NCBI GenBank assembly: GCA_902825775.1
Contig: CADECF010000003.1
Span: 77,088-111,699, forward strand
Direction of reading: 5' to 3'
DNA: 34,612 nt
Source of the DNA: an uncultured Lysobacteraceae bacterium
GTDB lineage: Bacteria > Pseudomonadota > Gammaproteobacteria > Xanthomonadales > Xanthomonadaceae
Part shown: positions 9,143-23,549 of the stretch, piece by piece
Numbering within the stretch: the first letter of the stretch is position 1
Layout of the letters: each line of letters opens with the position of its first letter
The notes under the pieces: generated by a model
Databases searched by the model: none
What the model was told of the DNA's origin: nothing
Seen by the model: only the letters and a program-made list of their open reading frames with translations
Program-made: the position numbers and the translations under genes

Positions 9143-10546
9143 TCAAACCCAACCGGTCAGATAGAACGCGCCGATCACGACGAACACCGCCGCGGTCTTG
9201 ACCAATGTGATCGCGAAGATGTCCTTGTAGGCCTGGCGATGGGTCAGGCCGGTGACTGCGAGCAGCGTGATCACCGCGCCGTTGTGGGGCAGCGTATCCA
9301 TGCCGCCCGAGGCCATCGCGGCGACGCGATGCAGCACCTCCATCGGGATTCCGGCCGCGTTCGCGTTGGCGATGAAAGTCTCGGACATCGCCGCCAGCGC
9401 GATGCTCATCCCGCCCGACGCCGAGCCGGTGATTCCGGCCAGCGCGGTGACGGCGATGGCTTCGTTGACGAGCGGGTTGGGGATGGAGGCCAGCGCATCG
9501 GCGATCACCAGGAAACCCGGCAGCGCGGCGATCACCGCGCCAAAACCATATTCGGACGCGGTATTCATCGACGCCAGCAGCGCGCCGCCGATCGCGGACT
9601 TGGTCCCTTCCGCAAAACTGGCGATGACCGGCTTCCAGGCGAAGGCGAGCACGCACAGGATGCCGACCAGCAGCGCGCCTTCCACCGCCCAGATCGCGGC
9701 CACTTTCGAGACTTCCTGCACTACCGGCGCGGCATTGCCGATCATGGCCGGCACGAATTCGTGGCTGCTGCCGTAAAACGCCGGGATCCATGCGGTGAGT
9801 AGCTTGTTGCTCACGCCGACCAGGACCAGCGGCAGTATCGCCACTACCGGATTGGCGAGCTTGCCGCCCGCGAACGGCGCCGGCTCGTTGATCAGCTTCG
9901 CCGGATCGCCATAGCCTTCGCCGGCCTTGAGCGCGCTGCGGCGACGCCACTCCAGATAGAGCAGCCCCACGATCAGGATGAAGACGCCGCCGAGCGTGCC
10001 CAGCCATGGCGCGGCCCAGGCATCGGTGCCGAAGAACGAAGTCGGAATGATGTTCTGGATCTGCGGCGTGCCCGGCAGCGCATCCATCGTGAACGTGAAG
10101 GCGCCCAGCGCGATCGTGCCCGGGATCAGGCGCTTGGGGATGTCGCTCTGGCGGAACAATTCCGCGGCGAACGGATATACCGCGAACACCACCACGAACA
10201 GCGACACGCCGCCGTAGGTGAGCAACGCGCAGACCAGCACGATCGACAGCATCGCGCGCTGAGCGCCCGCGATGCGGATGGTGGCTGCCACGATCGCGCG
10301 CGAGAAGCCGGAGATTTCGATCAGTTTGCCGAACACCGCGCCCAGCACGAAGACCGGGAAATACAGCTTCAGGAAGCCGACCATCTTGTCCATGAACAGG
10401 CCAGTGAACATCGGCGCGACGAGCGACGGGTCGGTGAGCAGCACAGCGCCCAATGCCGCGACCGGCGCGAACAGGATGACGCTGTGGCCGCGGTAAGCGA
10501 CCGCCATCAAGAACAGCAACGCGCCCAATACGATCAAAAACGCCAT
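9143..10546 (-). CDS. GntP-family permease, candidate 3-hydroxybutyrate transporter
   Basis: A 467-residue inner-membrane protein with about 12 hydrophobic segments. The GntP family imports gluconate and related hydroxy acids; one branch is annotated as D-beta-hydroxybutyrate permease. Family-like stretches include the glycine/alanine-rich ITGSASGGMSIAL and the MDTLPHNGAVITLL segment near the C terminus. The start at 10546 follows a GGAAGGAAG ribosome-binding site; a longer frame to 10654 lacks one. It is divergent from the TonB-dependent receptor (173 bp between starts) and precedes the hydrolase at 7842-9083. 3-Hydroxybutyrate is the preferred substrate because 3HB dehydrogenase and a 3HB-oligomer hydrolase lie nearby; other hydroxy acids cannot be excluded. 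Confidence 0.82.
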   Translation of the reverse strand: MAFLIVLGALLFLMAVAYRGHSVILFAPVAALGAVLLTDPSLVAPMFTGLFMDKMVGFLKLYFPVFVLGAVFGKLIEISGFSRAIVAATIRIAGAQRAMLSIVLVCALLTYGGVSLFVVVFAVYPFAAELFRQSDIPKRLIPGTIALGAFTFTMDALPGTPQIQNIIPTSFFGTDAWAAPWLGTLGGVFILIVGLLYLEWRRRSALKAGEGYGDPAKLINEPAPFAGGKLANPVVAILPLVLVGVSNKLLTAWIPAFYGSSHEFVPAMIGNAAPVVQEVSKVAAIWAVEGALLVGILCVLAFAWKPVIASFAEGTKSAIGGALLASMNTASEYGFGAVIAALPGFLVIADALASIPNPLVNEAIAVTALAGITGSASGGMSIALAAMSETFIANANAAGIPMEVLHRVAAMASGGMDTLPHNGAVITLLAVTGLTHRQAYKDIFAITLVKTAAVFVVIGAFYLTGWV

Positions 10547-10719
10547 GTAGCGGCTTCCTTCCTGGCTCAGTCGCCATTTCCCGAAAGCGAGTGTCGGCAT
10601 GCGGCCCGCTCCGGCCCATTGTCCGAAGGTACAGGTGCCGCGCGTCGCGTCCACTCACTAGTCTTGCCGGCATGGCGGGCAGCTTCGTCGGCCGACCGGT
10701 ACCCGTGAGGAGGGGAATC
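10547..10719. promoter_or_regulatory. Divergent promoter region between the permease and the TonB-dependent receptor
   Basis: This 173-bp gap must hold promoters for both genes. Visible elements are a perfect 10-bp palindrome gtcggccgac at 10687-10696, overlapping accggt and ggtacc palindromes at 10695-10704, and an imperfect ggtacaggtgcc palindrome near 10637. A GAGGAGGGG ribosome-binding site at 10707-10714 serves the receptor. No convincing sigma-70 boxes were found, which would fit activator-dependent expression. Confidence 0.4.
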
Positions 10720-12969
10720 ATGAACCGCAAAACTCTAAGCCTGGCGATCGCTTGCGCATTGCTGCCGCCCGTGGCTTGGGCGCAAGAGACAGCGCCTGCC
10801 GAGCCCGCCGATGCGCAGCAGGTCAATACGCTCGGCAAAATCACCGTGACCGCCCGCAAACGCGAGGAAACGCTGCAGGAAGTCCCGGTGGCGGTGACCG
10901 CGTTCACGCCGGATACGCTGGACAAGCTCAATGTCCGCGACCTCGGCGACCTCGACGCGCAGGTGCCCAACCTCACCGTCTACGCGGCTCGCGGTTCCAG
11001 CAGCACTATCACCGCCTATATCCGCGGCGTCGGCCAGTCCGATCCGTTGTGGGGCGTGGATCCGGGCGTGGGCTTGTACCTGGACGACGTCTATATCGCC
11101 CGTCCGCAGGGCGCGCTGCTCGACGTGTTCGACGTCGGCCGCGTCGAAGTGCTGCGCGGCCCGCAGGGCACGCTGTACGGCAAGAACACCATCGGCGGCG
11201 CGATCAAATACATCTCGCGGCCGCTGTCCACCGACTTGGAAGGCTTCGGCCAGGTCACGGTCGGCAACTACGGCCAGCGCGACATCAAGGCTGCGATCGG
11301 CGGCGGCCTAGGCGGCAACGACGCGCTGCGCGCGCGGCTGGCGGTCGCCGACCTGCATCGCGACGGCTTCGGCGAGAACATCGTCACCGGCGGCGACGTC
11401 AGCGACAAGAAGATCAAGGCGATGCGGTTCAACGTCGGCGCCTACGTCACCGATGCGGTCGACCTGCAGTTCGCGCTGGACTGGATGGAAGACACCTCGG
11501 GCGTACGCGGCGCTCAAATGCTCGCGCCGAATCCGTTCGCGCCGAGCATATTCGCGCCCAATCCGCTGGCGCCGGAGAACGCGCCGATGGCGGACCGTTA
11601 CGACGTGCGCAACGGCATGCCCAACATCAACGACACGTCCATGCACGGCATGTCGGCGACGGTCAATGCACGTCCGAACGAAGACTGGACGTTCAAGTAC
11701 GTGATCGCCCGCCGCGATTCCGATACCGAGACCAATATCGATTTCGATACCCTGCAGGCGAAAGTGGCGGACGTGAAGGCGTTCTATCGCGACCAGCAGG
11801 TCAGCCACGAACTGCAGGCCAATTTCGACTCCGGCGGCCGCGCCCGCGGGGTGATGGGCATTTATTATTTCGACGGCGAAGCCGGCGGCCAGGTGCTCAA
11901 CAATTTCTTCAACCTGTCGTTCGGCGACACCCAGGGTACGGTCTATACCGAGAGCTTCGCGGCGTATGCGGACTGGACTTTCGATCTCACCGACCAGCTG
12001 AAACTGGACGTCGGCGCGCGTTATACCGACGAAGACAAGCATGCCGTCGTGTTCAACCAAGGTTATCTGGACGACAGTTTCACCCGTCCCAGCGGCGTGG
12101 TCGTCGCCGATTTCGACAAGACGATCAATTTCAAGAACGTCTCGCCCAAGGTCTCGCTGGATTATCAGATCACGCCCGACATCATGGTGTACGGGCTGGC
12201 CAGCCGCGGTTTCAAGTCGGGCGGTTTCAACATCCGCGCGCAGGCGACCGCGGTGCCGCGATCGGCCGAACCGTTCGACGACGAGAAGGTCGACAGCTAC
12301 GAGATCGGCAGCAAGATGGGCTTCTTCGACCAGCGCCTGTTCCTGAATCTGGCCGCCTTCCACAACAAGTACGACGATATCCAGCTGTCGATCTTCACCG
12401 CCTACGACAGCAACGGCGACGGCAGCGAGGACGCATTCTTCGGCGACTTCACCAACGCCGGCTCCGGCACGGTGAACGGTTTCGAGCTGGAGTACCAATG
12501 GCTGCCGACCGAGCATTGGCTGATCTCGGGCAACCTGGCCACGCTCGACGCGAAATACGACGAGTACATGTTCAAGAACGTCAACATCGCCGGCCAGCAG
12601 GAGTTCACCAACGCCCCCGATTTCTCGGGCACGTTGAATCTCGAATACCGCACCGAACTGGCCGGCGGCGGCAACCTGTCCGCGCGCGTCGGCTACAGCT
12701 ACCAGAGCGATGTGGTGGCCACCACCGAGGTGACCCGCGATCCGGTAACCGGCGTGATCACCCGGCCGATCACTCAGGACGGATACGGCCTGGTCAGCGC
12801 GGGCGTTATCTGGAAAACCGGGTCGAACTGGTCGTTGTCGCTGCAAGGCACCAATCTGACCGATGAGCAATACCTGACCACCGGTTATGTGATCCCGGCG
12901 CTCGGTGTGCGCACCGGCTTCTACGGCGCTCCGCGCCAGTACAGCCTTTCCGCACGCTACGATTTCTGA
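10720..12969 (+). CDS. TonB-dependent outer-membrane receptor
   Basis: A 749-residue receptor that would import a ligand across the outer membrane using TonB energy. The signal peptide ends A-W-A at residue 21. A TonB-box-like ITVTAR stretch lies at 41-46, followed by the plug domain (about 50-170) with the conserved RVEVLRGPQGTLYGKNTIGG type motif. The rest is a beta-barrel ending in Y-D-F. No N-terminal signalling (STN) domain is present. The start at 10720 is set by the strong GAGGAGGGG box and the signal peptide. Ligand class cannot be read from the sequence; many such proteins take up siderophores or sugars. Its position between the permease and the 3HB sensor kinase suggests oligomeric 3HB or another hydroxy acid, which is inference. 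Confidence 0.9.
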   Translation: MNRKTLSLAIACALLPPVAWAQETAPAEPADAQQVNTLGKITVTARKREETLQEVPVAVTAFTPDTLDKLNVRDLGDLDAQVPNLTVYAARGSSSTITAYIRGVGQSDPLWGVDPGVGLYLDDVYIARPQGALLDVFDVGRVEVLRGPQGTLYGKNTIGGAIKYISRPLSTDLEGFGQVTVGNYGQRDIKAAIGGGLGGNDALRARLAVADLHRDGFGENIVTGGDVSDKKIKAMRFNVGAYVTDAVDLQFALDWMEDTSGVRGAQMLAPNPFAPSIFAPNPLAPENAPMADRYDVRNGMPNINDTSMHGMSATVNARPNEDWTFKYVIARRDSDTETNIDFDTLQAKVADVKAFYRDQQVSHELQANFDSGGRARGVMGIYYFDGEAGGQVLNNFFNLSFGDTQGTVYTESFAAYADWTFDLTDQLKLDVGARYTDEDKHAVVFNQGYLDDSFTRPSGVVVADFDKTINFKNVSPKVSLDYQITPDIMVYGLASRGFKSGGFNIRAQATAVPRSAEPFDDEKVDSYEIGSKMGFFDQRLFLNLAAFHNKYDDIQLSIFTAYDSNGDGSEDAFFGDFTNAGSGTVNGFELEYQWLPTEHWLISGNLATLDAKYDEYMFKNVNIAGQQEFTNAPDFSGTLNLEYRTELAGGGNLSARVGYSYQSDVVATTEVTRDPVTGVITRPITQDGYGLVSAGVIWKTGSNWSLSLQGTNLTDEQYLTTGYVIPALGVRTGFYGAPRQYSLSARYDF

Positions 12970-12994
12970 GTTCCGCTTCTGTGAGAGCGGCTTT

Positions 12995-13071
12995 GTGGGA
13001 GCGGCTTCAGCCGCGAGCTCTTTGTACGACGATGGCGACCCTCAAAAGCTCGCGGCTGAAGCCGCTCCCAC
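12995..13071. repeat. REP-type hairpin (GTGGGAGCGGCTTCAGCCGCGAGCT family)
   Basis: Perfect 25-bp inverted arms lie at 12995-13019 and 13047-13071, flanked on both sides by degenerate extra copies of the half-motif (gtgagagcggcttt before; gtcgctcccacgaaa and agccgctcccgc after). The element sits just after the receptor gene and can act as a transcription terminator or message stabiliser. The same arm recurs at 16557-16634. Confidence 0.85.
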
Positions 13072-13122
13072 AAAAGTCGCTCCCACGAAAAGCCGCTCCC
13101 GCAAAGAGCGCGTTATCCTCTT

Positions 13123-13144
13123 CGGGTGAAACCAAGATCACCCG
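13123..13144. promoter_or_regulatory. Inverted repeat before the sensor kinase gene
   Basis: CGGGTGA at 13123-13129 and TCACCCG at 13138-13144 are perfect inverted arms around eight bases. The site lies 34 bases before the kinase start, and a TTATCC -10-like box stands at 13112-13117. It may be an operator or a short hairpin in the 5' leader. Confidence 0.4.
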
Positions 13145-13178
13145 CTAGAGATTTTGCCGGACGGAAGGAGACCGCACG

Positions 13179-16100
13179 ATGCTGAGCATCGGCATCGTCG
13201 TGCTCGCCGCCTTGCTCTGGCTCGGTCTGCTGTTCGGCACGGCGCTGTACGCCGAACGCCATCCGCATACGCTGGCGCGGCAGTGGCCTTACGTCTATGC
13301 GCTGTCGCTGGCCGTGTACTGCACGTCTTGGACTTTCTACGGCACCGTCACCCAGGCCGCGCGCTACGGCTGGCCGCTGCCGCCGACGTTCGTCGGCACC
13401 ATCCTGCTGTACGTTTTCGCCGGCGCGGCGATGATGAAGCTGGTACGGCTGGCGCGCGAGTCGAATGCGACTTCGCTGGCCGACTTCATCGCAACGCGGC
13501 TGGGCAAGGACGGTTGGCTCGCGGCCACGGTGACCGCGGTGATCGCGCTGGGCCTGATCCCGTATATCGCCTTGCAGCTCAAAGCGATCGCGATGAGCTA
13601 CGCCATGCTCACCCGCGCCGATGGCGATGCGCTGCAACCGGCATGGCAGGATAGCGCCTTGTACGTCGCGCTGCTGATGGCGCTGTTCGCCATGCTGTTC
13701 GGCACGCGCCGGGTCAATGCCGCGGAACACAATCGCGGACTGGTGCTGGCGATCGCGTTCGAATCGCTGCTCAAACTCGCGGCGATGCTGGCGCTGGGGG
13801 CCTTCGTCTGGTGGGGTCTGGATTTGGGCGATGCGGCGGCGACGCCCGCGCCGCGCGCCGCATCCACTTCCGACGGCTTCGTGCCGCTGGTGCTGCTGGG
13901 CGTGCTGGCGATGTTCACGTTGCCGCACCAGTTCCACATGGGCGTGATCGAATGCCGCGATGATCGCCATGTGCGCACCGCGCGCTGGTTGTTCCCGCTG
14001 TACATGGTGTTGATCGCATTGCCGTTGCTGCCGTTGGCGCATGCCGGCGACGCGCTGCTGTCCGGGCGCGACGTGTCTTCGGATTTGTACGTGCTGGCGC
14101 TGCCGTTATCGCAAGGACAGGAAGGCCTGGCGCTGTTCGCCTTCCTCGGCGGCCTGAGCGCGGCCACCGGCATGATCGTGGTCAGCACGCTGACCTTGAG
14201 TCTGATGATCGGCAACCACTGGCTCGCGCCGGGCCTGTTGCGCGGCGCATGGTTGCGCCAGGGCGGCAGCGATTTGCGGGGCGTGGTGCTGTGGCTGCGG
14301 CGTGCGGGCATCCTCGCGATCATGCTGCTGGCCTGGATCTACAGCCGCCAGGTCGCGGGCAACGATGCATTGGCCGACGTCGGTGCGGTGTCGTTCTCCG
14401 CGCTCGCCACGCTGGCGCCCGCGCTGGCTTTCGCGGTGTGGCGACCGCAGACGCCGGCGCGAGCGGTGGTGGCCGGCATCGTGGCTGGTTTCGCGTTCTG
14501 GTGCTGGGCGCTGCTGGTGCCGGTCGCCAGCGAAGCGCGCGGCATCGCGCCTGCGTGGTTGCAGCAAGGCCCTTACGGCATCGGCTGGCTGGCGCCGGAT
14601 GCCTTGTTCGGCCTGACCGGTTGGAGCCGCCTCGGCCGCGCCGTGATCGCCAGCCTGTCGATGGGCACCTTGGCGACCGTGCTTGCGGCGACATGGCATA
14701 AAGCACCGCGCCGACGCTCGTCGCAACATTTCGATGCGCGCACCCTGCGCAATGCCGGACGCCGCTTCCTGCCGGCGCAGCGCCTCGACGAGTTGCTGCG
14801 CGATGCGCCGCAGGACGGTCCGGTGCCTGCGCAAATCGAATCCGCATTGGAACGCGAACTGTCTGCCGTGCTCGGCAGCGCCTCCGCACGCCTGTTGTTG
14901 GATGCCGCCAGGCGCGAAGCGGGGCCGGGACTGGATGCCGTCGCCGCGATCGTCGGCGAGGTTTCGCAGGATCTGCGCTTCAACCAACGCGTATTGGAAG
15001 CCGCGCTGCAGAACATGGATCAGGGCATCAGCGTGGTCGATGCGCAATTGCGGCTGGTGGCGTGGAACCGGCGCTATGCGGAGCTGTTCGGATTTCCGGA
15101 GACCTTGCTCGAAGTAGGGCGCCCGGTCGCGGACCTGACGCGTTGGGCCTTGCGCCGCATGCCGCCCCGCGGCGATGCGGAAGCCGCACTGCAGCGCAAG
15201 CTCGCTTTCATGCGCGCCGGCACGCCGCATCTTTCCGAACGCGTGTTCCCCGACGGCAGCATCGTGGAAATACGCGGCAACCCGATGCCCGGCGGTGGTT
15301 TCGTCGCTACGTTCACCGACGTCACCGCGTTCCGTCGCGCCGAGGCCGACCTGATCCAGGCCAACGAAACGCTGGAGCAGCGCGTCGACGAGCGCACCGC
15401 GTTGCTGCAAGCGGCCAAAGGCGAAGCCGAACGCGCCAACGACGCCAAGAGCCGCTTCCTGGCCGCGATCGGCCACGATCTGCTGCAGCCGCTGCACGCC
15501 GCGCACCTGTTCACCGATGCCTTGTCGCAACAACTCGACGACCGCCGCCAGCGCGATTCGGTCGTGCAGATCCGCGGCGCACTCGATTCCACCACCGAAT
15601 TGCTGACCGGTTTGCTGGACATGTCGCGGCTCGAAGCAGGCGGGCTGGTGCCGCAGCCGCGCGATTTCCCGCTGGCCGAAGTGATGGATCCGCTCGCTTC
15701 CGAGTTCCGCGCGCTCGCGGCCGAGCGCGGGCTGGCGTTCCGCTACGTGCCCACGCGCGCCTGGACGCACAGCGATCCGCAATTGTTGCGGCGGGTGCTG
15801 CAGAATTTCCTGGCCAATGCGGTTCGCTACACCCGCAGCGGCGGCGTGCTGTTCGGGGTTCGCCGTTACGGCGGTCGCGCACGGATCGAAGTGCACGACA
15901 CCGGCCCGGGCATCGCCGCCGAGCAGCAAGGCGCTATCTTCGACGAATTCAGGCGCGGCGATGACGAAAGCGGGCAGGGGCTGGGCCTCGGTTTGGCGAT
16001 CGCCGACCGCATCGCGGATCTGTTGCGGATGCCGCTGCAATTGCGCAGCAGGCAGGGCGCGGGTTCGATGTTTTCCGTGAGTGCGCCGCTGGCCGCCGGA

Positions 16101-16538
16101 ATGTCGACGGCATCGTTCTCTACTCGCGCCACGTTGCCGGGCACGAAAGTGCTGCTGGTCGACAACGATCCACAAGCGTTGGCCGCACTGCGCGAAGTGC
16201 TGGAAGGGTGGGGTTGCGAAGTCGCGGCCGCGCACGATCCCGAAAGCGCAGACGCGGCGTTGGCACGCATGCCGGCGGAATTCTGGCTGTTCGATTTCCA
16301 TCTCGACGACGGCGAGACCGGGGTCGGCCTGCATGAGCGATTGCAGCGCAACTATCCGGCGCGTCCGACCGTGATCCTCAGCGCCGACCAGGGCGAATCG
16401 GTACGCCGCGCGGTGCACGAAGCCGGTTTGTCGTTGTTGTTGAAGCCGCTGAAACCGTTGGCGCTGAAATCGGTGATGGATCGCCTGCTGGCGGCGCGCG
16501 GAGCGGATCAGGCACGCGAGCGGTCCTTTTCGGCGTAA
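13179..16538 (+). CDS. Hybrid histidine kinase with SLC5 transporter sensor (CrbS/MxtR-like)
   Basis: A 1119-residue membrane sensor. Residues 1 to about 500 form a sodium/solute symporter (SLC5) module of about 12-13 segments. A STAC-like linker (about 515-600), a PAS domain (about 610-720), a coiled coil and a HisKA domain with phospho-accepting His766 in GHDLLQP follow. The ATPase domain has Asn880 in NFLANAVRY, a DTGPGI box and GLGLGL. A receiver domain (about 985-1110) carries Asp1039. The start follows a GGAAGGAG box. Known relatives (CrbS, MxtR, CbrA) control use of acetate or other carbon sources. The likely partner is the LuxR-type regulator at 16651-17319, convergent and encoded with 3HB dehydrogenase. 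The ligand is unknown. Confidence 0.93.
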   Translation: MLSIGIVVLAALLWLGLLFGTALYAERHPHTLARQWPYVYALSLAVYCTSWTFYGTVTQAARYGWPLPPTFVGTILLYVFAGAAMMKLVRLARESNATSLADFIATRLGKDGWLAATVTAVIALGLIPYIALQLKAIAMSYAMLTRADGDALQPAWQDSALYVALLMALFAMLFGTRRVNAAEHNRGLVLAIAFESLLKLAAMLALGAFVWWGLDLGDAAATPAPRAASTSDGFVPLVLLGVLAMFTLPHQFHMGVIECRDDRHVRTARWLFPLYMVLIALPLLPLAHAGDALLSGRDVSSDLYVLALPLSQGQEGLALFAFLGGLSAATGMIVVSTLTLSLMIGNHWLAPGLLRGAWLRQGGSDLRGVVLWLRRAGILAIMLLAWIYSRQVAGNDALADVGAVSFSALATLAPALAFAVWRPQTPARAVVAGIVAGFAFWCWALLVPVASEARGIAPAWLQQGPYGIGWLAPDALFGLTGWSRLGRAVIASLSMGTLATVLAATWHKAPRRRSSQHFDARTLRNAGRRFLPAQRLDELLRDAPQDGPVPAQIESALERELSAVLGSASARLLLDAARREAGPGLDAVAAIVGEVSQDLRFNQRVLEAALQNMDQGISVVDAQLRLVAWNRRYAELFGFPETLLEVGRPVADLTRWALRRMPPRGDAEAALQRKLAFMRAGTPHLSERVFPDGSIVEIRGNPMPGGGFVATFTDVTAFRRAEADLIQANETLEQRVDERTALLQAAKGEAERANDAKSRFLAAIGHDLLQPLHAAHLFTDALSQQLDDRRQRDSVVQIRGALDSTTELLTGLLDMSRLEAGGLVPQPRDFPLAEVMDPLASEFRALAAERGLAFRYVPTRAWTHSDPQLLRRVLQNFLANAVRYTRSGGVLFGVRRYGGRARIEVHDTGPGIAAEQQGAIFDEFRRGDDESGQGLGLGLAIADRIADLLRMPLQLRSRQGAGSMFSVSAPLAAGMSTASFSTRATLPGTKVLLVDNDPQALAALREVLEGWGCEVAAAHDPESADAALARMPAEFWLFDFHLDDGETGVGLHERLQRNYPARPTVILSADQGESVRRAVHEAGLSLLLKPLKPLALKSVMDRLLAARGADQARERSFSA

Positions 16539-16556
16539 GGCCCGTAAATCGCTTTT

Positions 16557-16634
16557 GTGGGAGCGGCTTCAGCCGCGAGCTTCTATCGGCTAGATATCCG
16601 CGCTCGCAAAGCTCGCGGCTGAAGCCGCTCCCAC
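16557..16634. repeat. REP-type hairpin between convergent kinase and regulator genes
   Basis: Perfect 25-bp inverted arms lie at 16557-16581 and 16610-16634 with the same sequence as the element at 12995-13071 but a different 28-base centre. It lies between the stops of the kinase (16538) and the response regulator (16651) and could end transcription in both directions. Confidence 0.85.
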
Positions 16635-16650
16635 GAAAAGCGGAAGACCG

Positions 16651-17319
16651 TTACGAATCTTCCAAATGCCGCGAAGGATCGCTCAATTCCAACCCGCGCA
16701 GCACCACGCCAGCCTGCGTGCGATTGCGCACGCCGAGCCGGTCGAAGATCGCGGACAAATGCGCTTTGACCGTGCGTTCCTGCACATCCAGCCGGTCGGC
16801 GATCTGCTTGTTGAGCAGGCCTTCGGCGACCAGCGCCAATACGCGGAATTGCTGCGGCGACAGACTGGCCAGGCGCGCGGCGAGATCGGCGTCGTTGGCC
16901 GACGACTGCGCGCGCGCCACCGTAGCGCGCAACGTCGAGGGCAGCCATTGCTCGCAGGCCAGCACGCTGCGGATGGCGTCGCGCAACTCCTCCAAGCCGG
17001 AACTCTTCGGCAAATAGCCGGCGGCGCCGTGGTCCAGGGCGCGCAGCACCACGCGCGGATCGTCGTTGGCCGACACCACCACGACGGCGACGCCGGGATG
17101 CTGGGCGCGTATCGCTGCCAGTCCGGCCAGACCGTGGTTGCCCGGCATGTGCAAGTCGAGCAGGACCAGATCGATGCCGGGTTCGGATTCGAGCGTGGCC
17201 AGCACGCTTTCGAGCGAATCGGCCTCGCGCACCTGCAGGTCGGCGACCGCGTCCGCCGCCGCACCGCGCAGAGCGGCACGGAATAGCGGATGGTCGTCGG
17301 CGATCAGCAGGCTGGGCAT
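16651..17319 (-). CDS. LuxR-type (NarL/FixJ) response regulator, likely kinase partner
   Basis: A 222-residue two-domain regulator. The receiver domain (1-120) has Asp8/Asp9, phospho-accepting Asp55 in LLDLHMPG and Lys105 in YLPKSS. The C-terminal LuxR helix-turn-helix (about 150-215) contains NKQIADRLDVQERTVKAHL. It starts 17 bases after the stop of 3HB dehydrogenase on the same strand, so both are probably one operon. Regulators of this shape (CrbR, ErdR) pair with SLC5-type kinases such as the one convergently encoded here. Targets likely include nearby 3HB genes, which is inference; binding sites could be in the 18141-18250 gap and the 10547-10719 gap. Confidence 0.92.
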   Translation of the reverse strand: MPSLLIADDHPLFRAALRGAAADAVADLQVREADSLESVLATLESEPGIDLVLLDLHMPGNHGLAGLAAIRAQHPGVAVVVVSANDDPRVVLRALDHGAAGYLPKSSGLEELRDAIRSVLACEQWLPSTLRATVARAQSSANDADLAARLASLSPQQFRVLALVAEGLLNKQIADRLDVQERTVKAHLSAIFDRLGVRNRTQAGVVLRGLELSDPSRHLEDS

Positions 17320-17336
17320 GGCGGTCCGCGCGGGGC

Positions 17337-18140
17337 TTATTGCGCGGTCCAGCCGCCGTCGATCGGGATCGCCGCGCCGGTCATGTTGTGCGCCTCGCGC
17401 CGGCAGAGCCAGGTCGCCAATGCGGCGATGTCGTCGGGCAGCGACATGCGCAGGCTGGGTTGTTTTTCGCCGAGCAATGCGCGCACGCCGTCGTCGCGGC
17501 TGCCGCCGTTGCGGCGCGCTTCGATCTGCGGTTCGATCAGCGGCGTTTCCACCCAACCGGGGCAGATGCAATTCACCGTGACGCCGCCGCTGTCGCGGCT
17601 GCCGCTGCTGGCGTATTCGAGCGCGGCCACTTTGCTCATGCCGACCAGGCCGAACTTGCTGGCGACATAAGGCGCCTTCTGCACCGAAGCGACCAAGCCG
17701 TGCACGGATGCGATGTTGATCACGCGGCCGAAACCGCGCGCGGCCATACCGGGCAATGCCGCCTGCATCGTGTGGAAAGCCGCGCTGAGATTGATGGCGA
17801 GGATCGCATCCCAACGCTCGGCGGGCATGTCGGGGATCGAAGCGGTGTGCTGCACGCCGGCGTTGTTGACCAGTACGTCGATCGGCGACCAGGCTTCGAC
17901 CGCCTGCATCATCGATGCGATCCGCGCCGGGTCGCGCAGGTCGGCATCGAAATGGCGCGCGTCGGCGGCGCCGGCGTCGCGCACGGCCTGCGTCGCGGCA
18001 TCGATCTGGGCGGCGTCGCCCAGGCCGTTGATGGCCACGCGCGCGCCGTGGGCGGCCAGCGCGCGGGCGATGGCCAGGCCGATGCCGGAGGTGCTGCCGG
18101 TCACCAATGCGGTGCGGCCTTCGAGGAAACGGTCGTTCAT
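17337..18140 (-). CDS. bdhA: (R)-3-hydroxybutyrate dehydrogenase
   Basis: A 267-residue short-chain dehydrogenase that oxidises (R)-3-hydroxybutyrate to acetoacetate with NAD. The cofactor loop TGSTSGIG is at residues 14-21 and the N-N-A-G motif follows near residue 90. The active site includes Ser in NIASVHGLVAS and Y-V-A-S-K. Family hallmarks of 3HB dehydrogenase are present: NAGVQH, ICPGWVETPL, LLGEKQPS and a terminal DGGWTAQ. The start at 18140 gives the usual N terminus; a longer frame to 18329 is not supported. A short Gly/Ser/Asp insertion (SSGSRDSGGV) is seen where relatives are shorter. It leads an operon with the response regulator and is divergent from the oligomer hydrolase. Confidence 0.93.
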   Translation of the reverse strand: MNDRFLEGRTALVTGSTSGIGLAIARALAAHGARVAINGLGDAAQIDAATQAVRDAGAADARHFDADLRDPARIASMMQAVEAWSPIDVLVNNAGVQHTASIPDMPAERWDAILAINLSAAFHTMQAALPGMAARGFGRVINIASVHGLVASVQKAPYVASKFGLVGMSKVAALEYASSGSRDSGGVTVNCICPGWVETPLIEPQIEARRNGGSRDDGVRALLGEKQPSLRMSLPDDIAALATWLCRREAHNMTGAAIPIDGGWTAQ

Positions 18141-18169
18141 GGGGATTTTCGGCGATAAACGTGCAAGGA

Positions 18170-18180
18170 CGAACCGTAAC
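18170..18180 (+). promoter_or_regulatory. 11-bp motif shared with the phaE upstream region
   Basis: The sequence cgaaccgtaac lies 30 bases before the bdhA start and 70 bases before the oligomer hydrolase start. An identical copy stands at 20787-20797, 51 bases before phaE, in the same orientation relative to phaE as to the hydrolase. A common regulator of PHB and 3HB genes is possible. Confidence 0.4.
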
Positions 18181-18202
18181 AGGATTGCGCGACGGAAGCG
18201 TG

Positions 18203-18239
18203 GTACCAAAGTACGATGAAGGCCGGCGCCGGCTTTGCT
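18203..18239 (+). promoter_or_regulatory. Upstream elements of the 3HB-oligomer hydrolase gene
   Basis: An interrupted palindrome GTAC-CAAA-GTAC lies at 18203-18214. Downstream, 18224-18239 has the GG and GC spacing of a sigma-54 promoter (cGGCgCc-N4-TTGCT). If used, transcription would start near 18249, almost at the ATG at 18251. The sigma-54 match is partial and no ordinary promoter was found, so both calls are tentative. Confidence 0.3.
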
Positions 18240-18250
18240 AGTGTCGCCCC

Positions 18251-20101
18251 ATGAACCGATCCCGATACGCTTCAGCCGCAAGCCGCATCCTGGTTCCGCT
18301 GCTCGCACTGGCGCTGGCGGGCTGCGCAAGCGGGCCGCGGTCCGCCTCCACGGAGCCGAGCATGTTCACTTCGCCGCGCAGCAGCGAACACCGCGACCGC
18401 GACGACCTGCTCACGGCCGGGCTCGGCCTGGACGGCCTGCGTGCGATGACGCCGCCGGCCTTCGCCGACGCCGCCAATCCGACGCCAGCGGAATTGCGCC
18501 GTCGCGCCATCTGGAGCAACTGGCGCGGCATCGCCGATCTCGCGCCCGGTGGCGGTTACGGCGACTGGTACGGCAGTGTCGCCGCCGTGCCCGGCCGCGA
18601 ATTTTCGGCCTACGCCAGATTGCCCGGCGCCGCGCAGCCGCACCGCGTGCTGTTGCAATTGCCGGACAGCTTCGATGCCAAGCAGCGTTGCCTGATCGTC
18701 ACTGCGTCGTCGGGCTCGCGCGGCATCTACGGCTCGATCGCGGTCGCCGGCGCCTGGGGCTTGCCGAAAGGCTGCGCCGTGGTCCACACCGACAAGGGTA
18801 CCGGCACGGACTATTTCGATCTGGATGCCGGAACCGGCGTTCGCGCCGACGGCACACAGGGTGCGGCAGGTGCGAGCGACGATTTGGCCTTCGTACCGGA
18901 TGCGCCCGCTACAGGCAACGGTGTGGCGATCAAGCACGCGCATTCAAAAGACAATCCCGAGGCCGATTGGGGCCGCCACGTCAGGCAGGCGGCCGAGTTC
19001 GCGCTAAAGATGCTAAACGAGGCCTTGCCGCAATCGGCGCCTTTCACTTTCGAGAATACCCGCGTCATCGCCGTCGGCATTTCCAATAGCGGCGGCGCGG
19101 TGCTGCGCGCGGCGGAACTGGAAGGCGATTGGCTGGATGCGGTGGTCGCCGGCGAACCCAATATCTATGCGCCCGGCGAAGGCGCGCGGTCGATCTACGA
19201 CTACACCACCGAAGCCGCACTGGTGATGCCGTGCGCTCTGCTGCATATGAAAGGCTTGCCGCAACCGCCGCTGACCGCGCAAGTGCAGGCGATGGCGTCG
19301 GTTCGCTGCGCATCGTTGTCGAAAGCCGGTCTGCTGGAAGGCGCGGACACGGCCATGCAAGCGGCATCGGCGTATGCGCAGCTTCGTTCGAAAGGCTGGA
19401 CCGACGAAGCGCTCAAAGCGGGCGCGCTGACGACGGGCTTCGATGCATGGCGCGCGGTCGCCGTCACTTACGCTTCGGCTTACGGCCGTTATGGCGTCGG
19501 CGAACGTCCCTGCGGCTTCGGCTTCGCCGCGCAGGACGCGAAGTTGTCGCCGCGTGCCGCAACAGCGGCCGAACGCGCTGCATGGTGGTCCGATGCCAGC
19601 GGCATCCCTCCCGGGGCCGGAGTGGGCATCGTCGAAAAAAATCCAGAAATCGCAGCCGATATCGCCTACGGCGGCTTGCGCTGCCTGCGCAGCCTCTGGG
19701 ACGGGCAGGGCGCCGATGCCGAGCGCGTGCGCAAGGGCGTTGCGGAGACTAGGGCGTCCCTGCCTCGTAAAGGCCTGCCGATGATCGTCATCCATGGCGT
19801 CGACGACGGCCTGATACCGCAGGCCTTCAGCAGCAAGCCTTATGTCGCCTGGGCGAAAGCCAACGGCCGCGATGTGCGCTACTGGCAGGTGCGCAACGCG
19901 CAGCATTTCGACGCCTTCCTCGGGCTGCCCGATTACGGCGCGCGTTACGTGCCGATGCTGCCTTACGTCTACAACGCACTGGATCGCGTCTGGGCGCATC
20001 TGGAAAACGGCGCGGCATTGCCGGCGGACGCGGAAATCGCCACCACGCCGCGCAGCGCCGGCAAGGCGCTCTCTAAGGAAAATCTGGCGATACCGCGCTG
20101 A
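18251..20101 (+). CDS. 3-Hydroxybutyrate-oligomer hydrolase, lipoprotein form
   Basis: A 616-residue hydrolase of the D-(-)-3-hydroxybutyrate oligomer hydrolase family, which cleaves 3HB oligomers released from PHB into monomers. Residues 1-25 are a lipoprotein signal peptide with lipobox L-A-G-C. The nucleophile is likely Ser280 in the family S-N-S-G-G motif; Asp518 or Asp519 in IHGVDDGLIP and His552 in NAQHFDAF complete the probable triad. The lipobox places the enzyme on a membrane facing the periplasm or outside. No ribosome-binding site precedes the ATG, in line with a very short or absent leader. It is divergent from bdhA and is followed by the phosphatidyltransferase gene after 56 bases. 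Confidence 0.88.
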   Translation: MNRSRYASAASRILVPLLALALAGCASGPRSASTEPSMFTSPRSSEHRDRDDLLTAGLGLDGLRAMTPPAFADAANPTPAELRRRAIWSNWRGIADLAPGGGYGDWYGSVAAVPGREFSAYARLPGAAQPHRVLLQLPDSFDAKQRCLIVTASSGSRGIYGSIAVAGAWGLPKGCAVVHTDKGTGTDYFDLDAGTGVRADGTQGAAGASDDLAFVPDAPATGNGVAIKHAHSKDNPEADWGRHVRQAAEFALKMLNEALPQSAPFTFENTRVIAVGISNSGGAVLRAAELEGDWLDAVVAGEPNIYAPGEGARSIYDYTTEAALVMPCALLHMKGLPQPPLTAQVQAMASVRCASLSKAGLLEGADTAMQAASAYAQLRSKGWTDEALKAGALTTGFDAWRAVAVTYASAYGRYGVGERPCGFGFAAQDAKLSPRAATAAERAAWWSDASGIPPGAGVGIVEKNPEIAADIAYGGLRCLRSLWDGQGADAERVRKGVAETRASLPRKGLPMIVIHGVDDGLIPQAFSSKPYVAWAKANGRDVRYWQVRNAQHFDAFLGLPDYGARYVPMLPYVYNALDRVWAHLENGAALPADAEIATTPRSAGKALSKENLAIPR

Positions 20102-20157
20102 AGTTGCCGGCTTCACGCGGGTTTTGGCAGTCTGTCGCATCCGCAATGGAGCGCGAC

Positions 20158-20775
20158 ATGAAGCAACGCCATTTCTCGATGCTGCGCGACTTCCACCTGG
20201 CCGACTGGTTCACCTTGGCCAATGCGTTCTGCGGCACCGGCGCGATCTTCGCGGCGATGCGTTTCCTGCAGGAGGGCGTGGTCGCCGATTTGTTGATCGG
20301 CATGGCGCTGATTCCGCTTGCCTTCGTATTCGATGCGCTGGACGGCCGGATCGCGCGTTGGCGCAAGGTCGCCTCCACGCTGGGGCGTGAACTGGATTCG
20401 CTGGCCGACGTGATCTCGTTCGGCGTGGCCCCGGCCGCGCTCGGTTACGCCTGCGGCCTGCAGGGCGGCTGGGACTGGGTGGTGCTGAGTTATTTCGTGG
20501 TCTGCGGCGTCAGCCGCCTGGCGCGCTACAACGTCACCGCCGAAACGCTGGCCGACGGCGGCGACAAGGTGAAGTATTTCGAGGGCACGCCGATCCCCAC
20601 CAGCCTGGCGATCGTGGTGGTGCTGGGTGTCGCTGCCTGGCAGGGCCGCATCGGCGAATCGCTGTGGCTGGGCATGATTCCGCTCGGCCCCTGGCAACTG
20701 CACCCGCTGGCGCTGGTCTATGCCTTGTCCGGCTCGCTGATGATCAGCAAAACCCTGCGGATACCCAAGCCCTGA
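20158..20775 (+). CDS. pssA: CDP-alcohol phosphatidyltransferase, probable phosphatidylserine synthase
   Basis: A 205-residue membrane enzyme that transfers a CDP-diacylglycerol phosphatidyl group to an alcohol, most likely serine. The family signature D-G-x2-A-R-x8-G-x3-D-x3-D is complete in the segment starting DGRIARWRK. Several transmembrane helices follow. The start at 20158 is preferred because GGAG precedes it; an in-frame ATG lies 12 bases earlier and the open frame extends to 20104. It sits between the 3HB-oligomer hydrolase and phaE. The location may be incidental, although PHB granules have been described with phospholipid at their surface. The serine specificity is by family resemblance. 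Confidence 0.85.
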   Translation: MKQRHFSMLRDFHLADWFTLANAFCGTGAIFAAMRFLQEGVVADLLIGMALIPLAFVFDALDGRIARWRKVASTLGRELDSLADVISFGVAPAALGYACGLQGGWDWVVLSYFVVCGVSRLARYNVTAETLADGGDKVKYFEGTPIPTSLAIVVVLGVAAWQGRIGESLWLGMIPLGPWQLHPLALVYALSGSLMISKTLRIPKP

Positions 20776-20786
20776 TCGGTCGACCG

Positions 20787-20824
20787 CGAACCGTAACGTG
20801 CATCGGGCGGCCGGTTGCTATCAT
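20787..20824 (+). promoter_or_regulatory. phaE-phaC promoter region with shared 11-bp motif
   Basis: The motif cgaaccgtaac at 20787-20797 repeats the copy at 18170-18180. A TATCAT -10-like box is at 20819-20824; the position 17 bases upstream has no good -35 box, and the shared motif overlaps this spot. This arrangement suits a promoter that needs an activator bound near -35. Confidence 0.4.
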
Positions 20825-20848
20825 CGGTCCGCACCCACGGAGGCGGCG

Positions 20849-21862
20849 ATGACCCAAGCTGGAAACGCGATGCCCGGCGATTTCGAAGCGCTGGCGAAAC
20901 AGTACTGGAACGCATGGAGCGAGATGATGCGCGGCGCTGCGGTGCCCGGCGCGGCGACGTCCGGCGCGCAGGGTTGGCACGATGCGGTCGACGGCTGGAG
21001 CAAGCTCGTGCACGGCGGCCGCGAGGAAATCAACACCGCGGTGGAACGATTTAATGCGCAGGCGCGCGGCTGGTACGGGCAGATGCAACAAGTGGCCGCG
21101 CAGTTCGCCGGCCAAGACAGCAACGCGGCCGAAGTGGCGCGAGCCTGGAAGCAGGCGATGGGCGCGGTCGGCGAAAACCCCTTCCCGGAAATGTTCCGCT
21201 CGATGCGCGGACAGGGCCAACAGGGGTTGGAACAGTGGATCGAAGACGCTTCGCCGTACCTCGAGGCTTGGCGTCGCGAGAGCGCTTCTTGGCTCGGCAT
21301 GCCGGCATTCGGTTTCGCCCGCGAGCATCAGGAACGCTGGCAGAAACTGGCGCAGGCGCAACTGGACTACCAGGAACGCAACAGCGCCTACAACGCGCTG
21401 ATGATGAAAGCATCGCAGCGCGCCTACGAATTGTTCGAGGACAAGCTGCTCGAGCGCGAGGAGCCGGGCCGGCAACTCACTTCGGCGCGCGCGCTGTTCG
21501 ACCTGTGGATCGACTCCGCCGAGGAAGCCTACGCGGAGATCGCATTGTCGCCCGAGTTCCGGCAGGTGTACGGCGGGCTGGTCAACGCGCAGATGGGTCT
21601 GCGCAACGCCATCCAGAAGGAAGTCGAACAGGTCAACGCCACGCTCGGCATGCCAACGCGCACCGAAGTCGACGGCGCTCATCGCAAGATCGCCGAACTG
21701 GAGCGCGCGCTCAGCCGCTTGCGCCGCGCGACGGCTCCGCCGCCTTCGCCGAAAGCCGCGCCCGCTGCGGGAAAAACGGCAAGCAAGCCGGCTAAGAAGA
21801 AACCAGCAGCCGAGGCCGCCGCCAAGCGCGGCAACGGCAAGAACGCGAAGGGAAAGCGCTGA
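20849..21862 (+). CDS. phaE: Class III PHA synthase subunit PhaE
   Basis: A 337-residue helical protein of the PhaE family, the non-catalytic partner of PhaC in class III polyhydroxyalkanoate synthases. The N-terminal two thirds are rich in Trp, Gln and Glu and contain family-like stretches such as SAREALFDLW-type (here TSARALFDLWID) and YGGLVNAQMGLRN. The last 45 residues are Ala, Pro and Lys rich and very basic. The ATG at 20849 follows a GGAGG box. The gene is separated from phaC by a single base, so the two are translated together. It should act in the cytoplasm on nascent PHB granules. Confidence 0.92.
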   Translation: MTQAGNAMPGDFEALAKQYWNAWSEMMRGAAVPGAATSGAQGWHDAVDGWSKLVHGGREEINTAVERFNAQARGWYGQMQQVAAQFAGQDSNAAEVARAWKQAMGAVGENPFPEMFRSMRGQGQQGLEQWIEDASPYLEAWRRESASWLGMPAFGFAREHQERWQKLAQAQLDYQERNSAYNALMMKASQRAYELFEDKLLEREEPGRQLTSARALFDLWIDSAEEAYAEIALSPEFRQVYGGLVNAQMGLRNAIQKEVEQVNATLGMPTRTEVDGAHRKIAELERALSRLRRATAPPPSPKAAPAAGKTASKPAKKKPAAEAAAKRGNGKNAKGKR

Positions 21863-21863
21863 C

Positions 21864-22937
21864 ATGAACGGTCCGCTCAATTTCAGCGCCGACGCGCTGG
21901 CCCACGAAGCGCTGCAGATGCAGCAGAAGCTGTCGGCCGGCGTGGAGACGCTGCGCAACGTCGACGAGGTCGAGTATGGCGCCACCGCACGCCAGGAAGT
22001 CTGGCGCGACGGCAAAGTGGCGCTGTACCGCTTCGTCGGCGAAAAGGCGCCCACGGCCAAAGTGCCGCTGCTGATCAGCTACGCCTTGGTCAACCGCCCA
22101 TACATGGTCGACCTGCAGGCCGACCGCTCCATCGTCAAAGGACTGCTGGCGCGCGGCGAGGACGTTTACGTCATCGATTGGGGCTACCCCGACCGCTCCG
22201 ACCGCTTCCTGACGCTGGAGGATTACATCGAACGCTTCCTCGGCGGCGCGGTCGACCACCTGCGCGACGCGAACGGGCTGGATGCGATCAACCTGCTCGG
22301 CATCTGCCAGGGCGGCGCGTTCTCGCTGTGCTACGCGTCGCTGCATCCGGACAAGATCCGCAATCTGATCACGATGGTCACACCGGTCGATTTCCACACC
22401 CCGGACAACATGCTGTCGAACTGGACCCGGGGCATCGACATCGACCTGTTCGTCGATACGCTCGGCAACGTGCCGGCGGACCTGATGAACTGGTGCTACC
22501 TCACCTTGAAGCCTTGGCGGCTGTTCGCGCAGAAGTACGTGGGGTTGGTCGACATCCTCGACGACAAGAAAGCGGTCGAAGATTTCCTGCGCATGGAAAA
22601 ATGGATCTTCGATTCTCCCGACCAGGCCGGCGAGGCCTTCCGCCAGTTCATCAAGCAGTTCTATCAGGGCAACGGCTTCGTCGACGGCGGCATCGTCATC
22701 GGCGACAACGAAGTGCACTTGGGCCTGATCGAGATGCCGGTACTGAACATTTTCGCCGAGCAGGACCATCTAGTGCCGCCCGCGTCGTCCAAGGCTTTGA
22801 AAGGGCTCATCGGCAGCGACGATTACACCGAGCTGTCCTTCCGCGGCGGCCATATCGGCATCTACGTCTCGGGCCGGGCGCAGAAGGAAGTGCCGGAGAC
22901 GATCCACGGTTGGCTGGCGCAGCGTTCGCCGAAATGA
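21864..22937 (+). CDS. phaC: Class III poly(R)-hydroxyalkanoate synthase catalytic subunit PhaC
   Basis: A 357-residue alpha/beta-hydrolase-fold polymerase that joins 3-hydroxybutyryl-CoA units into PHB. The length and its PhaE partner define class III. The catalytic nucleophile is Cys148 in the lipase-like box G-I-C-Q-G-G, with Asp301 in AEQDHLVPP and His330 in RGGHIGIY. These match the Cys149/Asp302/His331 set known from Allochromatium within one residue. The start follows the phaE stop by one base, using a GAAGGGA box inside phaE. The stop overlaps the ATG of the next gene. No depolymerase or phasin gene is adjacent. Confidence 0.95.
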   Translation: MNGPLNFSADALAHEALQMQQKLSAGVETLRNVDEVEYGATARQEVWRDGKVALYRFVGEKAPTAKVPLLISYALVNRPYMVDLQADRSIVKGLLARGEDVYVIDWGYPDRSDRFLTLEDYIERFLGGAVDHLRDANGLDAINLLGICQGGAFSLCYASLHPDKIRNLITMVTPVDFHTPDNMLSNWTRGIDIDLFVDTLGNVPADLMNWCYLTLKPWRLFAQKYVGLVDILDDKKAVEDFLRMEKWIFDSPDQAGEAFRQFIKQFYQGNGFVDGGIVIGDNEVHLGLIEMPVLNIFAEQDHLVPPASSKALKGLIGSDDYTELSFRGGHIGIYVSGRAQKEVPETIHGWLAQRSPK

Positions 22938-23305
22938 TGCGTGCCGTTGCGGCGATTTGCGGCGTCGTGCTCGGATGGTCGCTGGCGCCCGCGGCCGCCG
23001 CTCAGACGGGCGCGCAACCGCAGATCGCCGGCTTGATCGAAGCGCTCGGCGACTCGGACTGCCGCTTCGAACGCAACGGCAAGTGGTACGCCGCCGCCGA
23101 CGCGCGCAAGCACCTGCAGCGCAAGTACGAGTACCTAAGCAAACGCGACCTGGCGGCGACGCCCGAGCAGTTCATCGAACGCGCGGCCAGCACCAGCAGC
23201 GTCAGCGGCAAGCCCTACCACGTGCAGTGCCCGGGCCAGCCCCGGCAGGCGTCTGCCGACTGGTTCAAACAACAGCTGCAGCGGTTGCGCGCAACCGCGA
23301 AATGA
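22934..23305 (+). CDS. Periplasmic DUF5329 (YfeK-like) protein
   Basis: A 123-residue small exported protein. A signal peptide of about 23 residues ends near A-A-A-Q. The mature part has the DUF5329 pattern: two cysteines (DSDCRFERNG and HVQCPGQ), a KYEYL segment, an EQFIERAAS helix and the SGKPYHVQC stretch. Two ATGs overlap the phaC stop (22934 and 22937), so translation is probably coupled to phaC. The function of this family is unknown. Its coupling to phaC may be positional only; the signal peptide puts it in another compartment from PHB granules. Confidence 0.8.
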   Translation: MMRAVAAICGVVLGWSLAPAAAAQTGAQPQIAGLIEALGDSDCRFERNGKWYAAADARKHLQRKYEYLSKRDLAATPEQFIERAASTSSVSGKPYHVQCPGQPRQASADWFKQQLQRLRATAK

Positions 23306-23345
23306 ACGGTTAGACTGGGCTCATCCAGCCAGTAATCCGAGCCCG

Positions 23346-23549
23346 ATGAACACGCCCAAGCACAGCCTCGCCCGTTCCATCAACGACCGCGTCCTGGCCG
23401 GGGTGATCGGCGGCATCGCCCACCGCTTCGGCTGGAATTCCACGCTGCTGCGCGTGATCTATGTGGTCTTGTCGGTCATATCGGTGGCGTTCCCCGGCAT
23501 CCTGGTCTACCTGATCCTGTGGCTGCTGATACCGGAAGGCAACGATTGA
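23346..23549 (+). CDS. PspC-domain inner-membrane protein
   Basis: A 67-residue protein composed of one PspC domain. It begins with a basic stretch (KHSLARSINDRVLAGV), then GGIAHRFGWNSTLLRVIY, a typical PspC core, and ends with a long hydrophobic helix (ILVYLILWLLIPEG). PspC domains sense envelope stress in the phage-shock system, but stand-alone short forms are common and their role is not established. The gene overlaps the following one, whose TTG start lies inside the last codons. Confidence 0.88.
   Translation: MNTPKHSLARSINDRVLAGVIGGIAHRFGWNSTLLRVIYVVLSVISVAFPGILVYLILWLLIPEGND

Follow-up and report, generated by a model that had tools for sequence, protein, structure and literature searches.

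Introduction

The CrbS/CrbR (MxtR/ErdR) two-component system of Vibrio and Pseudomonas consists of a hybrid histidine kinase fused to a transporter-type SLC5 domain and a LuxR-type response regulator; its published role is in acetate utilisation, and an ACTU motif has been described for CrbR targets (PMC5715377). Here, we describe a locus that carries a pair of this kind in a 34,612-nucleotide stretch of DNA from an uncultured Lysobacteraceae bacterium (contig CADECF010000003.1, positions 77,088 to 111,699; referred to below, at its full length, as the window). The pair is found among genes for a GntP-type permease, a TonB-dependent receptor (TBDR), a 3-hydroxybutyrate (3HB) dehydrogenase (bdhA) and a lipoprotein 3HB-oligomer hydrolase (3HBOH). 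It resembles CrbS/CrbR in its SLC5-fused hybrid kinase, its LuxR-type regulator, the convergent orientation of the two genes and the AC-N4-GT core of a candidate operator located upstream of a promoter. The differences are that bdhA occupies the position of acs, that the operator reads GTAC-N4-G[GT]AC instead of GAC-N4-GTC and the recognition helix of the regulator mostly QERT instead of SEAT, and that the pair falls into a separate tree group.

Three other described arrangements can be compared with the window. The RpuS/R pyruvate system of Sinorhizobium also places an SLC5/STAC kinase and a LuxR-type regulator beside a transport gene; it differs in that its target is a pyruvate symporter and that kinase and regulator are predicted to form one operon, and the portions of the article considered here mention no receptor or hydrolase, both of which the window has (PMC9100948). 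Neighbourhoods of GntP genes on plasmids of Cupriavidus, Azospirillum and Klebsiella share with the window a permease (72-76% identical) located beside a 3HB dehydrogenase, but their regulators are sigma-54-interacting, Crp/Fnr or LysR proteins, and the stretches shown contain no annotated receptor or 3HBOH. The TBDR-containing carbohydrate utilisation (CUT) loci of Xanthomonas comprise a receptor, an extracytoplasmic hydrolase, an inner-membrane transporter and a regulator. All four components are present in the window, with a shared predicted operator, but the proposed substrate is a polyester oligomer, with nothing pointing to a carbohydrate, and the sensor is a transporter-type kinase.

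A first-pass annotation, made from the DNA letters alone, proposed that the locus scavenges 3HB oligomers and noted that a dedicated outer-membrane receptor and a transporter-type sensor were not known to have been described together with such enzymes. The latter point is consistent with the literature consulted: no TBDR or SLC5-type kinase for 3HB or its oligomers is described among the matches listed (titles and abstract openings, mainly of non-subscription literature), and the word "hydroxybutyrate" does not occur in the main text of PMC5715377, PMC8402216, PMC9927547, PMC5436829 or PMC9100948.

Results

Conservation of Gene Order in the Family

The genes of the window were identified as open reading frames and by Pfam and NCBIfam family scans (Table 1). 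Every gene named in the first-pass annotation, that is the permease, TBDR, SLC5 kinase, LuxR-type regulator, bdhA, 3HBOH and phaE-phaC, was recovered; a PssA-like gene ahead of phaE had been overlooked. The regulator gene and bdhA, which had been placed in one operon, lie on one strand with 17 bp between them, as an operon-like pair.

We sampled 149 genomes of the family and scored the window's kinase (kinase-B) as present at 49% identity or above, fragments included. It was found in 107 genomes belonging to 42 of the 54 genera. One hundred loci were fetched from 99 of these 107 genomes (the eight left out are the window's own genome and seven with fragment or contig-end matches), each stretch spanning ca. 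8 kb to the left and ca. 12 kb to the right of the kinase start, and the presence of genes was determined by tblastn. Since the stretches end ca. 12 kb to the right of the kinase start, counts for downstream genes are lower bounds. The receptor is present in 88 of the 100 loci, the permease and the regulator in 86 each and 3HBOH in 81; together with the kinase, these genes make up a core of five that is complete in 70 loci. Less often found are Bdh (44), PhaE (43), PssA (41) and PhaC (39, partly limited by stretch length), followed by DUF5329 (14), a PGAP-like esterase (5) and ArsR-type and AHSA1 proteins (1 each). The in-view genes flanking the locus on the permease side are kept in at most five loci, and a thiolase and a protease located farther left in one locus each, counts that are uninformative because both genes lie mostly beyond the fetched stretches. 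Gene-order comparison among relatives had been suggested as a check; as can be seen, the receptor and the permease are not absent next to these genes.

The hydrolase gene was found in 108 of the 149 genomes. Kinase-B and 3HBOH occur together in 103, the kinase alone in 4, 3HBOH alone in 5 and neither in 37; two of three genomes of the window's own genus lack both. A search of relatives with the kinase retrieved five loci, one of them full-length (76%, Lysobacter sp.), and a class-wide search for kinase-B gave matches in 6 of 274 genomes at E <= 1e-200, three of them outside the family with 39-44% identity.

The lack of conservation of in-view genes beyond the permease could be taken to mean that unrelated genes have come together by chance. 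We regard this as extremely improbable and ruled out by synteny, since the order is kept in most of the 100 loci from 99 genomes and operators are shared. As judged from these comparisons, the genes form a conserved unit with its own predicted operator.

A Candidate Operator Shared by Two Divergent Promoters

Two sets of divergent promoter regions, GntP/TBDR and (bdhA-)regulator/3HBOH, both with the window included, were searched separately for gapped dyads. Among the leading dyads were GTAC-N4-GGAC in the first set and GTAC-N4-GTAC in the second, which are variants of each other, and the pattern that covers both, GTAC-N4-G[GT]AC, is present in 76 of 86 GntP/TBDR regions and 57 of 71 (bdhA-)regulator/3HBOH regions. 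Within the fetched loci, there are 132 matches in 36.9 kb of these promoters vs. 39 in 1.886 Mb elsewhere, near-palindromes being counted on both strands. A longer form, GTACNNNNGKACRAT, has three exact matches in the 3.76-Mb genome, two of which are at these promoters, while the third (C15) is without clear gene context. Among the 150 family-wide matches listed, 59 lie near kinase-B and five just upstream of 3HBOH genes located elsewhere. Alignment of the 57 regions revealed a conserved -10-like TGnTA element, positioned downstream of operator 2 with constant spacing. A scan of positions 16500-23400 of the window revealed no sigma-70-type promoter site, and terminator-like sites occurred there at chance level.

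We also inspected 19 additional stretches, picked by eye and not exhaustive, from genomes in which 3HBOH is not in view beside kinase-B or which have no kinase-B. The operator directly precedes 3HBOH in 12 of the 19; all 12 are among the 17 genomes that have kinase-B, and neither of the two without it (G028 and G060) has the site there. A B-type regulator lies within 2 kb of 3HBOH in 11. Because of its position in these 12 stretches, the predicted operator tends to go with the hydrolase gene. The regulator encoded in the window (regulator-B) would bind the GTAC-N4-G[GT]AC palindrome, with the proposed direction of regulation given in the Discussion.

Relationship of the Sensor-Regulator Pair to the Acetate Switch

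Kinase-B contains PAS, HisKA, HATPase and REC domains according to Pfam. Its residues 7-456 match PDB chain 10ed ("histidine kinase"; E 1.7e-49), which we take to be the SLC5 kinase CbrA, and also align with the acs-linked kinase described below; the protein is thus an SLC5 domain fused to a histidine kinase. Residues 1-574 have no Pfam match, and the STAC linker likewise has none in that stretch, no STAC-specific model having been applied. The best NCBIfam model for regulator-B is ErdR, with 214 bits at a cut-off of 390; the acs-linked copy, with 254 bits, is likewise below the cut-off.

The same genome carries a second pair (pair A), whose kinase gene is convergent with the regulator gene, the latter following acs (L001, 9519-17903). 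The sequence TAGAC-N4-GTCTA located upstream of this acs matches the ACTU motif of CrbR targets. A DcaP-type porin gene is positioned divergently at the pair-A locus. Pair-A stretches were obtained as a control from 33 genomes; acs is in view in 18 of them and is cut by the stretch end in eight of the 18. In 17 of the 18, regulator and acs share a strand (G189 shows no regulator). Of the 10 genomes where the region upstream of acs is in view, nine have GAC-N4-GTC there (8/8 within the family and 1/2 outside it) and none has the operator pattern of the window. Because the regulator lies on the acs strand and GAC-N4-GTC, never the window's pattern, precedes acs, pair A is classed by sequence as an acetate switch; the window's pair (pair B) is arranged in the same way, with bdhA taking the place of acs. 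Linkage to acs and the ACTU-type operator are features of pair A and not of pair B.

The two kinases of the window's genome are 42% identical. A quick tree of 60 kinases places the 32 B rows together on one side of a branch (support 100); the 17 A rows from the family are likewise set apart by a branch with support 100, the deeper order being not settled. The recognition helix of pair-A regulators reads SEAT in all 12 readable rows (11 genes, with two rows from a single gene of another family; another two rows could not be read), while 79 of 85 pair-B rows, the window included, have QERT, three have SERT and three QLRT. At the sequence level, pairs A and B differ consistently in both operator and recognition helix. 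We then counted the alignment columns that are at least 90% fixed in each kinase group and differ between the two; with domain limits set partly by hand, such differences make up 33 of 151 fixed columns in SLC5, 5 of 20 in STAC/linker, 6 of 41 in PAS, 4 of 75 in the kinase core and 3 of 20 in REC, the contrast between SLC5 and the kinase core having p 0.001. By sequence relationship, pair B is a paralogue of the CrbS/CrbR acetate switch.

Pair B could alternatively be a second acetate (acetyl-CoA) switch, the locus being an acetate-control arm that, in the presence of acetate signals, draws in 3HB-type substrates without sensing 3HB. Paralogy to a system known for acetate utilisation, a nearly unchanged kinase core and the AC-N4-GT core common to both operators agree with this view. 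However, the genome already has a pair with an ACTU-type site at acs, the two pairs show consistent differences in recognition helix and operator, most fixed differences fall in the SLC5 domain and 3HBOH is present in 103 of the 107 kinase-B genomes. We therefore consider a second acetate switch unlikely. A plain CrbS/R acetate switch is rejected for pair B because the genome holds a separate acs-linked pair with an ACTU-type site and because the window's pair has a different operator.

The Permease and the Receptor

The permease has no match among the curated models of Pfam or NCBIfam and none in a PDB sequence search. Homologues were found in 103 plasmid records, four of which were opened. 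In three of the four regions, on Azospirillum, Cupriavidus and Klebsiella plasmids, the homologue is located beside a 3HB dehydrogenase; in the fourth, from Mycetohabitans, no 3HB dehydrogenase adjoins it. Since homologues adjoin 3HB dehydrogenase on three plasmids, 3HB is proposed as the permease substrate, and the neighbourhoods support this assignment. In four of the fetched loci, Bdh is located beside GntP and on the GntP strand.

The receptor matches pesticin, haem, colicin I, vitamin B12, iron and unnamed TonB receptors in the PDB, and its ligand is not readable from the sequence because of this diversity. Two groups of proteins, with 77 members (the window included) and 12 members, occupy the receptor slot in relatives, and the operator is found in the promoter regions of both (65 of 73 and 10 of 12, respectively). 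One may suppose that the receptor is unrelated to 3HB, serving e.g. siderophore or vitamin uptake as a stable neighbour only, and that the 3HB unit comprises just the permease, the regulator pair, Bdh and the hydrolase. The PDB relatives, mostly siderophore, haem, colicin and vitamin B12 receptors, and the change of receptor group in 12 loci would fit, and short 3HB oligomers might also pass through porins. On the other hand, receptors of both groups share an operator-bearing divergent promoter with the permease, a PHB (poly-3-hydroxybutyrate)-depolymerase-like gene lies between receptor and kinase in 17 loci, and a receptor is kept in this place in 88 of 100 loci. An unrelated receptor is thus possible, but we hold it to be doubtful.

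The Hydrolase, the Dehydrogenase and the Link to PHB

The window's 3HBOH matches PF10605 over nearly its full length (489 bits, cut-off 27; profile positions 13-654 of 688) and has no match in a PDB sequence search. It contains a G-x-S-N-x nucleophile box, GISNSGG, the form in 53 of 79 members of its cluster being GISNGGG; the serine of this box is presumably catalytic. Because it also has a lipobox (LAGC), the protein should be located outside the cytoplasm. A simple test detected lipoboxes in 52 of the 79 cluster members and in 13 of the 17 depolymerase-like proteins that are encoded between receptor and kinase (17 of 100 loci); one scanned member of the latter cluster matches PF10503, Esterase PHB depolymerase.

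The product of bdhA reaches 280 bits with PRK12429 (cut-off 258) and 282 with TIGR01963, just under the cut-off of 307. In relatives, the Bdh slot holds two subfamilies: a scanned member of the window-like one has 274 bits with TIGR01963, below the cut-off, and two scanned members of the other have 356 and 360. Two genes for CoA-transferase subunits are present in the window's genome. The products of phaE (TIGR01834, 218 bits at a cut-off of 155) and phaC (TIGR01836, 540 at 365) are class III polyhydroxyalkanoate (PHA) synthase proteins, while the PssA-like product stays below the NCBIfam pssA cut-off (101 bits vs. 107). An inverse link between Bdh in the slot and PhaC was not supported (Fisher p 0.17).

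The enzymes present also allow for a locus that mainly serves the cell's own PHB, with 3HBOH and Bdh mobilising PhaE-PhaC stores and receptor and permease recapturing leaked monomer. PhaE-PhaC follow 3HBOH in the window, PhaC is downstream of 3HBOH in 14 of the 19 additional stretches, and intracellular hydrolases of 3HB oligomers have been described (titles among the references of PMC7830162). Yet the lipobox, present in the window's protein and in most of its cluster, predicts a 3HBOH outside the cytoplasm, an outer-membrane receptor would be needless for internal stores, and PhaC is in view in 39 of the 100 loci. Such a role appears improbable as the main function, and the link of the locus to PHB storage is the looser one.

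Other Features of the Window

Coordinates of the genes and of the two candidate operators are collected in Table 1.

Table 1. Features of the locus in the window (strand relative to the window as presented).
Feature	Position	Strand	Basis or remark
GntP-type permease	9143-10546	-	69-76% identity to proteins annotated "GntP family permease"
Candidate operator 1, GTACCTTCGGACAATG	10617-10632	-	In the GntP/TBDR divergent promoter; GTAC-N4-G[GT]AC pattern
TonB-dependent receptor (TBDR)	10720-12969	+	Pfam Plug and barrel, PF07715 and PF00593
SLC5-PAS-HisKA-HATPase-REC hybrid sensor kinase (pair B, CrbS paralogue)	13179-16538	+	Pfam; 10ed match
LuxR/ErdR-type response regulator (CrbR paralogue)	16651-17319	-	Response_reg and GerE
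3-hydroxybutyrate dehydrogenase, bdhA	17337-18140	-	NCBIfam PRK12429
Candidate operator 2, GTACCAAAGTACGATG	18203-18218	+	In the bdhA/3HBOH divergent promoter; GTAC-N4-G[GT]AC pattern
Lipoprotein 3HB-oligomer hydrolase (3HBOH)	18251-20101	+	PF10605; lipobox
CDP-alcohol phosphatidyltransferase, PssA-like	20146-20775	+	PF01066; between 3HBOH and PhaE
PhaE, class III PHA synthase subunit	about 20849-21862	+	TIGR01834
PhaC, class III PHA synthase	21864-22937	+	TIGR01836

Two inverted pairs of AGCGGCTTCAGCCGCGA, similar to repetitive extragenic palindromes, are located on either side of the kinase gene (13000-13066 and 16562-16629). In 16 loci among L037-L136, a protein of ca. 162 amino acids, NUDIX-like by eye, is encoded directly downstream of the kinase. 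A PGAP1-like alpha/beta hydrolase (7842-9083; present in 5 of 100 loci) adjoins the permease, and farther left the window contains an S8 subtilase autotransporter (2489-5305, Pfam), which lies mostly beyond the stretches fetched from relatives. At the other end, 30198-31478 encodes a protein that by eye we take to be sigma-factor-like, close to a small protein (31732-32154), presumably YCII/DGPF-like.

Discussion

Gene content, conserved order, a shared operator and paralogy to the acs-linked pair are read directly from the sequences compared here; what receptor, permease and kinase recognise, and what becomes of 3HB, we infer from them. We consider it likely that a CrbS/R-like system re-targeted to 3HB controls the uptake and cleavage of 3HB oligomers. 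According to this proposal, 3HB oligomers would cross the outer membrane through the TBDR and be cleaved to 3HB by the lipoprotein 3HBOH, helped in some relatives by the PHB-depolymerase-like protein, and 3HB would be brought in by the GntP-type permease. The SLC5-fused kinase would respond to 3HB or to its metabolism and phosphorylate the LuxR-type regulator, which, acting on GTAC-N4-G[GT]AC in both divergent promoters, would turn on the permease and receptor genes and the 3HBOH and bdhA/regulator genes together; activation of its own bdhA/regulator unit would constitute positive feedback. Imported 3HB would be oxidised by Bdh, where present, or used for PHB synthesis by the neighbouring PhaE-PhaC. 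For the further-reaching idea of a polyester-utilisation locus with a 3HB-oligomer receptor and a new 3HB-reading kinase branch, in which changes of helix and operator insulate two switches in one cell, we see about an even chance.

Several observations weigh against re-targeting to 3HB. Nothing among the receptor's PDB relatives points to 3HB as its ligand, and 12 loci (L047, L069, L079, L085 and L101 among them) have a receptor of the second group. The excess of fixed differences in the SLC5 domain is weak evidence for a new ligand because catalytic cores are usually under stronger constraint, and in 15 of 33 genomes the pair-A kinase and acs are not in one stretch. Ten of the 86 GntP/TBDR regions and 14 of the 71 (bdhA-)regulator/3HBOH regions lack the operator pattern, as do 5 of the 17 additional stretches from kinase-B genomes (in G120 kinase-B is present as fragments). 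Of the 150 family-wide matches listed, 86 lie elsewhere, and no match precedes pssA/phaE in the window. The sampled genomes are kin, so that counts of synteny and co-occurrence are not independent events.

The dehydrogenase and the synthase speak against it as well. Bdh is located between regulator and 3HBOH in 37 of the 78 loci that have both and is not in 41, and PhaC is in view in a minority of loci. No bdhA homologue was found at E <= 1e-40 in 17 of 20 genomes searched, all 17 of which carry the locus; most of the 20 had been chosen for lacking Bdh in the slot, and a more diverged Bdh could drop below this limit, two of the three hits having scored 1e-51 and 1e-40. Since Bdh is missing from many loci and from these 17 genomes, oxidation of 3HB by Bdh is, as far as homology tells, not universal among carriers.

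The scavenging system put forward in the first-pass annotation therefore holds in part. Its uptake side is supported: receptor and permease are kept in relatives, and the operator is common to their promoter and the bdhA-regulator/3HBOH promoter. The annotation had not recognised sensor and regulator as a paralogue of the CrbS/R acetate switch. Its statement that imported 3HB is either oxidised or stored applies to the window, which has bdhA and PhaE-PhaC, and less so to relatives, where bdhA (44/100) and PhaC (39/100) are weakly kept.

Storage of PHB is common among bacteria, and the polymer is also marketed as a bioplastic; among the literature matches listed, no outer-membrane receptor for its breakdown products is described. 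The locus brings together, as one unit open to testing, candidates for receptor, importer, sensor and operator. It also provides a naturally occurring example of paralogous two-component systems, two within one cell, that differ in sensor domain, recognition helix and operator. The CrbS/R-type switch is already known; its predicted 3HB-linked paralogue with an operator of its own is the new aspect. Sensing, uptake and cutting of PHB fragments are probably carried out by a compact gene set that is kept in many Lysobacter-like bacteria.

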